From assembly GCF_002532045.1 (NCBI RefSeq), contig NZ_NWTG01000004.1, positions 372,001 through 436,000 of the forward strand: a stretch of 64,000 nt of DNA. Reading direction: 5' to 3'. The stretch is from Bradyrhizobium sp. C9. Lineage in GTDB: Bacteria > Pseudomonadota > Alphaproteobacteria > Rhizobiales > Xanthobacteraceae. A program made the position numbers and the translations under genes. Of this stretch, positions 51,963 to 60,620 are shown piece after piece. Positions within the stretch are counted from its first letter, which is position 1. Each line of letters opens with the position of its first letter. The notes under the pieces were generated by a model that worked only from the letters and a program-made list of their open reading frames with translations, was not told where the DNA came from and ran no database searches.

Positions 51963-52012
51963 GATACGCCGCACGCTCGCAGACTTTACCGTTGCAGATT
52001 TGGAGAGCCGCG

Positions 52013-52585
52013 ATGACCCTGTCCAACGATCTCGACAAACTGCGATCGGAAATGCAGGCCGCGGTCAAGCAGCACTGGAAGGCGTTCCTGTTCGAAGGCA
52101 TCCTGCTCGTGACCATCGGCATCGCGGCGATGATCGTGCCGACATTCGCGAGCCTCGCCGTCACCATCTTCCTCGGCTGGATGTTCCTGATCTCAGGCAT
52201 CGGCGGGCTGATCGTGACCTTCTGGGCGCGCAACATGCCGGGTTTCTGGTGGTCGCTGATTTCGGCCGCGCTCGCCGTGCTGGCCGGCATGGTGCTGCTG
52301 GCGCGTCCGATGCAGGGCGTGCTGACGCTGACGATCGTGATCGGCGCCTATTTCGTCGCCGAGGGCGTCACCACCCTCATGTATGCGCTCGAGCACCGCC
52401 GCGAATTGTCGGGACGCTGGTCCTGGCTCTTGATCGCCGGCCTGATGGATGTCGTCGTCGCCTTCTTCATCATCGCGGGCCTGCCGGAGTCGGCAGGCTG
52501 GGCGATCGGCCTCCTGGTCGGCCTCAATCTGATGTTCGGAGGGGCGACGCTGATAGGTATGGCGTTGGCGGCGCGCAACACCTGA
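52013..52585 (+). CDS. HdeD/DUF308 family membrane protein
   Basis: A 190-residue inner-membrane protein with six hydrophobic segments in three pairs (H-W-K-A-F-L-F-E-G-I-L-L, G-W-M-F-L-I-S-G-I-G-G-L, G-A-Y-F-V-A-E-G). HdeD in E. coli is linked to acid resistance at high cell density. GGAGAG lies 6-11 bases before the ATG at 52013. Follows the PrsW-like gene on the same strand. Confidence 0.9.
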   Translation: MTLSNDLDKLRSEMQAAVKQHWKAFLFEGILLVTIGIAAMIVPTFASLAVTIFLGWMFLISGIGGLIVTFWARNMPGFWWSLISAALAVLAGMVLLARPMQGVLTLTIVIGAYFVAEGVTTLMYALEHRRELSGRWSWLLIAGLMDVVVAFFIIAGLPESAGWAIGLLVGLNLMFGGATLIGMALAARNT

Positions 52586-52616
52586 CGGCCAACTGGCTGC
52601 CCCCGCGGTTTTGGGG

Positions 52617-52645
52617 GTGACAGGCCGACATCCGTGGGCTATAGA
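52617..52645 (+). promoter_or_regulatory. Sigma-70-type promoter of the aroF leader
   Basis: GTGACA (52617-52622) and TATAGA (52640-52645) are separated by exactly 17 bp, five of six matches to the -35 consensus. The expected start of transcription is about 52652-52653, which coincides with the leader-peptide ATG at 52653, so the leader mRNA may have little or no 5' untranslated region. Confidence 0.65.
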
Positions 52646-52652
52646 GCCGCCC

Positions 52653-52733
52653 ATGATCACCGTCGCCACCAGCTATTTTTGGTACTTTAGCTACGACAGC
52701 TCGCTGGCGGCAGGAGGATCGCGCTCAATCTGA
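52653..52733 (+). CDS. Aromatic-rich leader peptide of the DAHP synthase gene
   Basis: A 26-residue frame: M-I-T-V-A-T-S-Y-F-W-Y-F-S-Y-D-S-S-L. Residues 8-14 are Tyr-Phe-Trp-Tyr-Phe-Ser-Tyr, so six of seven codons specify aromatic amino acids (52674-52694). It stops at 52733, 24 bases before the terminator stem and 86 bp before aroF. Ribosome stalling at these codons when charged tRNA-Tyr, -Phe or -Trp is scarce would favour the antiterminator (see next entry). The role is inferred from layout; I do not know of an experimental report. Confidence 0.8.
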   Translation: MITVATSYFWYFSYDSSLAAGGSRSI

Positions 52734-52783
52734 AGAATTGCAGCAAACGTCCAAAACAAGCCGCCAGACCTGGCGGCTTTTTT
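52704..52783 (+). promoter_or_regulatory. Attenuator with antiterminator and terminator hairpins upstream of aroF
   Basis: CTGGCGGC at 52704-52711, just after the aromatic codons, is complementary to GCCGCCAG at 52760-52767. The latter also pairs with a second CTGGCGGC at 52770-52777 to form the terminator. The two pairings exclude each other. The terminator is AAGCCGCCAG / CTGGCGGCTT followed by TTTTTT (52778-52783). With the leader peptide this has the classic 2:3 versus 3:4 arrangement of ribosome-mediated attenuation. Confidence 0.8.
52758..52783 (+). terminator. Rho-independent attenuator terminator
   Basis: Perfect stem AAGCCGCCAG / CTGGCGGCTT with a very short loop and six T residues, 36 bp before the aroF start codon. 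It is placed to stop transcription before the structural gene. Confidence 0.9.
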
Positions 52784-52818
52784 GTGCCGGCAGGTCTCGA
52801 AATCCAAAGGAGCCAGCC

Positions 52819-53904
52819 GTGTTGAGTACGACAGACGATCTTCGCATCAAGGAACTGAAAGAGCTGAGTACGCCCGAAGAGGTGATGCGGGAGGTCCCGC
52901 GCACCCTGACGGCGACCCGCGTGGTGATGGGTGCGCGCAACGCCATCCACGCGATCCTCAACGGCACCGATGACCGCCTGCTGGTCGTCGTCGGCCCCTG
53001 CTCCATCCACGATCCCGCGGCGGCCGTCGATTACGCCGAGCGTCTCGCCGGCCTGCGCGAACAGCTCGCCGACCGCCTCGAGATCGTGATGCGGGTCTAT
53101 TTCGAGAAGCCGCGCACCACCGTCGGCTGGAAAGGGCTGATCAACGATCCCGATCTCGACGGCAGCTTCGACATCAACAAGGGCCTGCGGCTTGCGCGCA
53201 ACGTGCTCTCGGCCGTGAACAATCTCGGCCTGCCGGCCGGCACCGAATTCCTCGACATGACGACGCCGCAATACATCGCCGACCTGGTCTCCTGGGCCGC
53301 GATCGGGGCACGCACCACCGAGAGCCAGATCCATCGCGAGCTGGCGTCCGGCCTGTCGTGCCCGGTCGGCTTCAAGAACAGCACCGATGGTGGCGTGCGG
53401 ATCGCGGCCGACGCAGTGAAATCGGCGTCGCACCCGCATCATTTCATGGCGGTCACCAAGGGCGGCCGTTCGGCGATCGCCGCGACCAGCGGCAACGAGG
53501 ACTGCCACGTCATCCTGCGCGGCGGGCGGGTGCCGAACTATGATGCAGCGAGCGTCGAAGCGGCTGCCGCCGAGCTCGGCCACGCCGGTGTCGCGCCGCG
53601 GCTGATGATCGACACCAGCCACGCCAACAGCAGCAAGAAGCCGGAGAACCAGCCGGCAGTTGCGGCCGACATCGCACAGCAGGTCGCAAGCGGCGAACAG
53701 CGCGTCATCGGCGTGATGATCGAGAGCAACCTTGTCGCCGGACGTCAGGACGTCGTGCCGGGCAAGCCGCTGACCTACGGCCAGAGCATCACGGACGGCT
53801 GCATCGACCTCGCGACGACGGCTGACGTGTTGCAGCAGCTGGCCGATGCCGTCGAGGCGAGGCGCAGCGTGCGGCGCGATGGCCTGCAGGAGCGTTCGGC
53901 CTGA
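52819..53904 (+). CDS. aroF: 3-Deoxy-7-phosphoheptulonate (DAHP) synthase, class I AroF/AroG type
   Basis: First step of the shikimate pathway: erythrose-4-phosphate plus PEP to DAHP. The 361-residue product shows V-V-V-G-P-C-S-I-H-D-P (about 54-64), Y-F-E-K-P-R-T-T-V-G-W-K-G, G-R-S-A-I-A-A-T-S-G-N-E-D-C-H and D-T-S-H-A-N. The start is GTG at 52819 with AAAGGAG seven bases upstream; the frame is open further back into the attenuator. Expected controls are the aromatic leader upstream and allosteric feedback; which amino acid inhibits it cannot be read from the sequence. Confidence 0.95.
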   Translation: MLSTTDDLRIKELKELSTPEEVMREVPRTLTATRVVMGARNAIHAILNGTDDRLLVVVGPCSIHDPAAAVDYAERLAGLREQLADRLEIVMRVYFEKPRTTVGWKGLINDPDLDGSFDINKGLRLARNVLSAVNNLGLPAGTEFLDMTTPQYIADLVSWAAIGARTTESQIHRELASGLSCPVGFKNSTDGGVRIAADAVKSASHPHHFMAVTKGGRSAIAATSGNEDCHVILRGGRVPNYDAASVEAAAAELGHAGVAPRLMIDTSHANSSKKPENQPAVAADIAQQVASGEQRVIGVMIESNLVAGRQDVVPGKPLTYGQSITDGCIDLATTADVLQQLADAVEARRSVRRDGLQERSA

Positions 53905-60057: not shown

Positions 60058-60158
60058 TCGGTCCGCGTGGCCGATCACCTGGACGCCAGTCGGGTCCAGG
60101 CGTAACGGGCACCGGTCGTGTCCGGTGCTTCTCATACCCATCTTGCTCTTTGGAGGAT
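60058..60158 (+). ncRNA. ROSE-type RNA thermometer in the small heat-shock gene leader
   Basis: Four consecutive stem-loops fit the ROSE layout: TCGG/CCGA (60058-60074), ACGCC/GGCGT (60083-60103), GCACCGG/CCGGTGC (60109-60128) and the last hairpin (60140-60158) in which ATCTTGCTC faces GGAGGAT, hiding the ribosome site. The T-T-G-C-T motif opposite the Shine-Dalgarno is the hallmark of ROSE elements that repress Bradyrhizobium small heat-shock genes at low temperature. Confidence 0.85.
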
Positions 60159-60164
60159 TTGGCT

Positions 60165-60620
60165 ATGCGCACGTACGATTTCTCTCCCCTCTTCCGGTCG
60201 ACGATCGGGTTCGACCGTCTCTTCGATCTGGCCGAGACAGCTCAGCGGGCCACCGAAGACAACTACCCACCCTACAACATCGAACGACTTGCCGAAGACC
60301 GCTACCAGATAGCGCTCGCGGTCGCCGGCTTCTCACCGGACGAGATCTCGGTTACCGCCGAGCAGAACGTCCTGACGATCGAGGGCAACAAGGTCGAAAA
60401 AGCAGACCGCGACTATCTCTATCAAGGTATCTCGACCCGTCGATTCAGGCGGCAATTCAGCTTGGCGGACCATGTCCTGGTGAAGAACGCCGCGTTCGAC
60501 AATGGTCTGCTCAGGATCGAGCTGGCACGCGAAATTCCGGAAGCCATGAAGCCGCGGCGGATCGCGATCAACGCAACGCAGCCGAACCGGCCGCAACAGC
60601 TCGAATCAGCTGCAGCGTGA
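60165..60620 (+). CDS. Small heat-shock protein, Hsp20/IbpA family
   Basis: ATP-independent holdase chaperone of 151 residues. It starts M-R-T-Y-D-F-S-P-L-F-R-S-T-I-G-F-D-R-L-F, as class A rhizobial sHsps do, and has an alpha-crystallin domain (about 35-130) with Y-N-I-E-R, F-x-x-x-F-S-L-A-D and G-L-L-R-I-E-L. GGAGGA lies 8-13 bases upstream inside the ROSE hairpin, which makes translation heat-dependent. Four small genes follow on the same strand. Confidence 0.95.
   Translation: MRTYDFSPLFRSTIGFDRLFDLAETAQRATEDNYPPYNIERLAEDRYQIALAVAGFSPDEISVTAEQNVLTIEGNKVEKADRDYLYQGISTRRFRRQFSLADHVLVKNAAFDNGLLRIELAREIPEAMKPRRIAINATQPNRPQQLESAAA

Follow-up and report, generated by a model that had tools for sequence, protein, structure and literature searches.

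We identified a gene for a type I-alpha DAHP synthase in the window, the 64,000-nucleotide stretch of Bradyrhizobium sp. C9 DNA analysed here, and upstream of it a region with the layout of an amino acid attenuator (Table 1). The enzyme assignment of the original prediction is borne out by the TIGR00034 (aroFGH) profile, against which the gene product scores 528.2 bits (cut-off 173.2). The leader ORF, the run of aromatic codons, the segments able to pair and the six T were likewise all found in the sequence where they had been predicted.

Table 1. Features of the putative attenuator and its gene (positions in the window)
Feature	Position	Strand	Basis
Putative promoter: GTGACA (52617-52622), 17 nt, TATAGA (52640-52645)	52617..52645	+	sequence
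Leader peptide ORF MITVATSYFWYFSYDSSLAAGGSRSI, 26 codons and stop	52653..52733	+	sequence, relatives
Region 1, possible protector strand, pairs with region 2	52662..52673	+	minimum-energy fold, own species
Control codons Tyr-Phe-Trp-Tyr-Phe-Ser-Tyr	52674..52694	+	sequence
Region 2, CTGGCGGC, antiterminator 5' strand, within leader ORF	52704..52711	+	sequence, pairing with region 3
Predicted intrinsic terminator: 9-bp stem, GACC loop (52758-52779), T run 52778-52783	52758..52783	+	generic scan, sequence
Region 3, GCCGCCAG, common to antiterminator and terminator	52760..52767	+	sequence, covariation tests
Region 4, CTGGCGGC, terminator 3' strand	52770..52777	+	sequence, covariation test
Shine-Dalgarno-like AAAGGAG of the DAHP synthase gene	52806..52812	+	sequence
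Type I-alpha DAHP synthase (3-deoxy-7-phosphoheptulonate synthase), GTG start 52819	52819..53904	+	TIGR00034 profile

The CTGGCGGC copies at 52704 and 52770 can each pair with GCCGCCAG at 52760, as had been proposed, and the predicted terminator with its six U is best drawn with nine pairs and a GACC loop. One detail is to be amended: the first CTGGCGGC, which begins nine bases beyond the last Tyr codon, does come after the aromatic run, but it is still within the leader ORF and not past its end. A generic scan of positions 52000-53200 returned the hairpin at 52758-52779 as the sole terminator-like site and flagged no promoter-like site in the same interval. Among the short ORFs (8-45 aa) on both strands of the window, the leader is unique in having 6 aromatic residues in 12. 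Three such ORFs, the leader included, have at least 5 aromatics in 12, and only the leader precedes a terminator-like hairpin. The leader peptide has no match in NCBIfam at E≤10. Elsewhere in the window, a ROSE RNA thermometer (RF00435, 72.2 bits) was identified at 60079-60171 on the plus strand.

Upstream regions of related genes were scored by a leader-plus-terminator rule, the thresholds of which were chosen after examples had been viewed. In the family sample, the gene was found in 23 of 198 genomes with the window's protein, and all 23 have leader and terminator. Of 297 genomes in the order, 39 exceed the TIGR00034 cut-off and 39 of 39 are positive; nine of these belong to the window's genus and were already in the family count, and the other 30 are new. 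In the class, 14 of 385 genomes exceed the cut-off, with leader and terminator in 12 (two already counted in the earlier samples). Named loci were positive in 69 cases among the best 80 of at least 595 confirmed. Within these best 80, the rhizobial and other alphaproteobacterial positives come from Bradyrhizobium, Mesorhizobium, Rhizobium, Devosia, Kaistia, Methylosinus, Caulobacter and Phenylobacterium. Further positives come from Achromobacter, Bordetella, Advenella, Paraburkholderia, Trinickia, Massilia, Cupriavidus and Limnobacter, as well as from Xanthomonas, Dyella, Rhodanobacter and Pseudoxanthomonas.

The original prediction had staked itself on relatives keeping the leader frame and the paired segments, and the comparison favoured it. 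In total, 132 of 145 upstream regions carry leader and terminator by the rule, giving 129 distinct sequences; the total includes the best 80 of at least 595 named loci, and the named and unnamed sets may overlap in genomes. The 13 failures are L065, L066, L122, L137, L146, L152, L160, L161, L162, L163, L167, L168 and L171. Three of them, L065, L122 and L167, have merely 172, 172 and 64 bases upstream on the contig, and L065, from the class sample, is cut by the contig end. The other class-sample failure, L066, by eye keeps the terminator and CTGGCGG with two aromatic codons only, and L137 has an aromatic ORF with no terminator by the rule. On this sequence evidence, the candidate element is common to Alpha-, Beta- and Gammaproteobacteria and is no rhizobial speciality. 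A record titled Mycobacterium sp. KBS0706 (L096) has a leader near that of Inquilinus limosus (L101) and is perhaps misnamed.

The window's own genome also encodes a type II DAHP synthase (L064). By eye, no such leader and terminator lies within 350 bases upstream of it; the upstream region holds short ORFs in which aromatic residues are scattered, and an inverted repeat that has no T run. This gene may be controlled in some other way.

For the analysis of the helices, 65 representatives with less than 80% likeness were picked greedily from the 132 positive regions and aligned (alignment A2). The representatives were drawn from positives only, so the 13 negatives are absent from all alignment-based counts. 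By our own division, made from record titles and kinship, 40 representatives are alphaproteobacterial and 25 other, the latter taking in L131, a record that has no class name. Covariation of the two pairings, which the original prediction had put forward as a check, was observed in that both the 2:3 and the 3:4 helix show changes on both sides. Across the 65 representatives, 84.9% of cells in the 2:3 helix are paired and five of its eight pairs have changed on both sides. Its covariation is 0.098 versus 0.067 in shuffled alignments (0 of 500 as high), and slid versions reach at most 0.059. The 3:4 helix is paired in 97.1% of cells, with covariation of 0.169 versus 0.102 (0 of 500 shuffles as high; slid versions at most 0.137). 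Doubly changed pairs in 3:4 number two, a count that does not exceed shuffles (238 of 500), and the same is true of further pair types (242 of 500).

Examples of compensatory change include CTGGCAG with CTGCCAG in L023, AGCGG with CCGCT in L054 and GCCGGCGG with CCGCCGGC in L072. Tested sequence by sequence against its own shuffled flank, the 2:3 helix reaches p≤0.05 in 72 of 129 sequences. As the 2:3 core is nearly invariant, its covariation leans on few positions and lineages, and the compensatory changes in a core that is otherwise nearly constant are moderate evidence. RNAalifold applied to A2 returned the terminator alone (6 pairs).

Minimum-energy folds of the single representatives are consistent with alternative states. 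When the ribosome is taken as halted and region 4 as unmade, at least four of the five 2:3 core pairs are present in 57 of 65 representatives; when region 2 has been passed by the ribosome, 3:4 is present in 65 of 65. The five core bases of region 3 all pair upstream in 48 of 65, versus a mean of 14.35 and a maximum of 20 over 20 rounds of upstream shuffling. Antiterminator and terminator are thereby predicted to exclude each other through the 5' strand of the terminator. A protector hairpin 1:2 of the E. coli trp type is formed in the fold of the window's species but is unsupported family-wide, with p≤0.05 in 8 of 129 sequences (a test of low power on short strands). Also common in A2 are a purine-rich, GGAGG-like stretch directly after region 2 (columns 84-100) and a C-rich motif before region 3 (columns 140-145). 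A second antiterminator helix between these two outdoes letter shuffles (0 of 200 as high) but hardly differs from pairings with exchanged partners (24 of 500 as high), and we do not claim it.

Given the parts, their order, spacing and conservation, and the compensatory changes seen among relatives, we consider it very probable that the element controls DAHP synthase by classical, ribosome-mediated transcription attenuation. It appears to have the traits of trp-, phe- and his-type attenuators, namely a control-codon leader, a predicted terminator, an antiterminator, suitable codon placement and a pathway-matched gene. In the model that we infer for start site, leader translation, termination and starvation response, transcription would begin at or beside the leader ATG, with the ribosome trailing the polymerase. 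If charged Tyr, Phe or Trp tRNA were scarce, the ribosome would halt in the aromatic run with its edge at or before region 2. Region 2, left free, would pair with region 3 once the latter had been made, and the gene would be read, since the terminator could not form with region 3 already paired. If the tRNAs were charged, the ribosome would cover region 2 within the ORF, 3:4 would form and transcription would stop at the U run.

The spacing of the leaders fits such a model. We assumed a distance of 12 nt between the first base of the codon in the A site and the leading edge of the ribosome. With this footprint, a stall on the last aromatic codon brings the edge precisely to region 2 in 39 of the 65 representatives and no more than 6 nt from it in 65 of 65; the sequences are related, and thus the 39 exact cases are not independent events. 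The distance from region 2 to the stop codon has a median of 19 bases (129 sequences), so that a ribosome that does not halt would cover region 2. The leaders also favour one Phe synonym, with 153 TTT to 47 TTC, versus 58 to 328 in the corresponding DAHP synthase genes (odds ratio 18; four of the compared genes are partial). This use of the rare codon TTT may reflect decoding pace or base composition.

We infer that Tyr, Phe and Trp are all sensed. The three residues occur together in 33 of the 40 alphaproteobacterial and 13 of the 25 other representatives, and under the assumed footprint region 2 would be free whichever of the six aromatic codons in the window's leader the ribosome stalled on. 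Both observations speak against the main alternative, to which we nonetheless assign an appreciable minority chance: that the attenuator in effect responds to a single amino acid, most likely Phe or Tyr, with the other aromatic codons as passengers. This alternative would agree with the counts of the single residues in the 65 representatives, which were picked for aromatic leaders (Phe in 65, Tyr in 63 and Trp in 48). It would also agree with the report that AroR of Corynebacterium glutamicum has Phe-Tyr-Phe yet responds to Phe alone (PMC11802643). Because that leader is described as answering Phe and not Tyr, leader composition is no proof of which amino acid is sensed.

Among the 65 representatives, 54 share one reading frame across region 2 and 11 use another. 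Of these 11, four carry the usual CTGGCGG or TTGGCGG and the other seven carry variants of it, and the 2:3 core still folds in nine (L070 and L104 fail). Since the core survives the frame changes in 9 of 11, the RNA, and not the peptide, seems to be under constraint past the aromatic run, and a peptide-level function of that part is disfavoured. TnaC exemplifies leader peptides that arrest the ribosome, in which the nascent peptide rather than codon starvation sets the stall. A leader of this type might account for the likeness of the post-aromatic part in many sequences, for example PLAEEGxRS, but pairing explains that likeness, the order and kind of the aromatic residues differ among relatives and the frame changes argue against it, so we regard it as highly improbable. 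In L024, and in L093, L094 and L099, the frame past the aromatic run is unusual and the region 2 RNA is alike.

A covariance model built from the 65 DAHP synthase leaders, with the terminator as its sole structure, gave matches at E≤0.01 in 175 of the 398 phylum genomes searched, many of the weak ones covering the terminator end only. The best matches returned lie at 30 loci, all 30 with DAHP synthase directly downstream, although many of these genomes had also supplied the model. A simple terminator of an upstream unit, preceded by a chance ORF and followed by a separate DAHP synthase promoter, would also place a hairpin between ORF and gene, but it is scarcely credible given the mere 35 nt from T run to start codon, the company of leader, terminator and DAHP synthase in three classes and the gene content of those best-match loci.

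The 33 further matches that we chose comprise 17 before DAHP synthase, seven before pheA-like ORFs (chorismate mutase/prephenate dehydratase-like; L208, L209, L212, L215, L218, L220 and L238), three before pheS-like ORFs (L210, L213 and L214) and six before none of these. One ORF of each kind, pheA-like and pheS-like, was profile-checked and the rest were assigned by their resemblance to it. In E. coli, pheA and pheST are described as established cases of attenuation (PMC11802643), and the matches before pheA-like and pheS-like genes therefore favour the same mode of action for the DAHP synthase leaders. The Phe attenuators and this leader family may have a common origin or may have converged. 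In the window's own genome, the model search gave no convincing second copy: the five other matches (E 0.06 to 0.16) cover the 3' part of the model only, and one is the same place on the opposite strand.

In 30 of the 40 alphaproteobacterial representatives, the best -10-like hexamer ends 6 or 7 nt 5' of the ATG, a position that predicts a leader mRNA that is leaderless or nearly so. The spacing between hexamer and ATG varies in the 25 other representatives. The trpL mRNA of Sinorhizobium meliloti has been reported to be leaderless (PMC10117765, PMC7298713). The main text of a paper on B. japonicum start sites (PMC4842269) makes no mention of attenuation, leader peptide, DAHP, aroG or aromatic. 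A more elaborate version, in which the attenuator works across Pseudomonadota as an OR gate on the charging of the tRNAs for Tyr, Phe and Trp where the shikimate pathway begins, and the terminated leaderless mRNA acts in trans as RNA or peptide, seems unlikely to us. Such a trans-acting product would resemble rnTrpL/peTrpL of S. meliloti.

The original prediction also held that this design was not a standard example for DAHP synthase in rhizobia. Attenuation of a DAHP synthase through an aromatic leader peptide is known from C. glutamicum aroR-aroF (Neshat et al. 2014, as described in PMC4046766 and PMC11802643). There, Phe limitation is described as causing ribosome stalling and raising transcription, with no response to Tyr (PMC11802643). 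With this precedent, and with the element carried by Beta- and Gammaproteobacteria too, the claim is narrowed, and what stands is that we found no alphaproteobacterial description in the open PMC literature. The present element resembles AroR-aroF in placing an aromatic-codon leader peptide before DAHP synthase; the latter differs in belonging to Actinobacteria and in its run of Phe-Tyr-Phe, the two being likened by description and not by sequence.

The gammaproteobacterial pheA and pheST attenuators, with their leaders pheL and pheM, share a Phe/Tyr-rich leader, GC-rich alternative helices and a U run with the element studied here. They differ in their genes, in a Phe-dominated run and, by eye, in a GGGAGGC-like core; in the pheS leaders L210, L213 and L214 a GGAGGCT strand follows the stop codon (by eye). 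Within Alphaproteobacteria, the trpL-trpE(G) attenuator of S. meliloti, in which the leader AUG is described as the first codon of the transcript and a terminated leader RNA is released (PMC7298713, PMC10117765), is comparable to the present element, for which a transcript starting at or beside the AUG of a leader ORF and a terminated leader RNA are predicted. It differs in having Trp codons only and another gene, and is again likened by description rather than sequence. Putative attenuators have also been listed before aroA I-alpha > tyrA in Vibrio (PMC1173090, Table 7) and before aroF/aroH in Shewanella (PMC2659441, Table 3). Like the present element, these concern control of type I-alpha DAHP synthases from the 5' region; they differ as predictions in other gammaproteobacteria, with no leader peptide sequence in the passages that describe them.

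Rfam 15 has no family match at the element, either in the window at gathering scores or in ten relatives at E≤1. The open PMC literature yielded no description before alphaproteobacterial, betaproteobacterial or xanthomonad DAHP synthases; an earlier description in subscription papers is possible. The sequences point to a wide Pseudomonadota attenuator family for DAHP synthase for which we found no description, and the mechanism itself would be classical.

Aromatic amino acids are made through the shikimate pathway, which DAHP synthase opens. In E. coli, the enzyme is under feedback inhibition. Control by TyrR and TrpR has also been described there (PMC11802643). In three classes of Pseudomonadota, a putative attenuator has been kept before this gene, and in most cases its leader has codons for two or three end products of the pathway. 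Such an attenuator would explain how flux is set at the shared step when a single product is short, and it offers a ready model for asking whether one ribosome can sense several tRNAs. We suggest that the family merits an RNA family model and annotation of its small ORFs.
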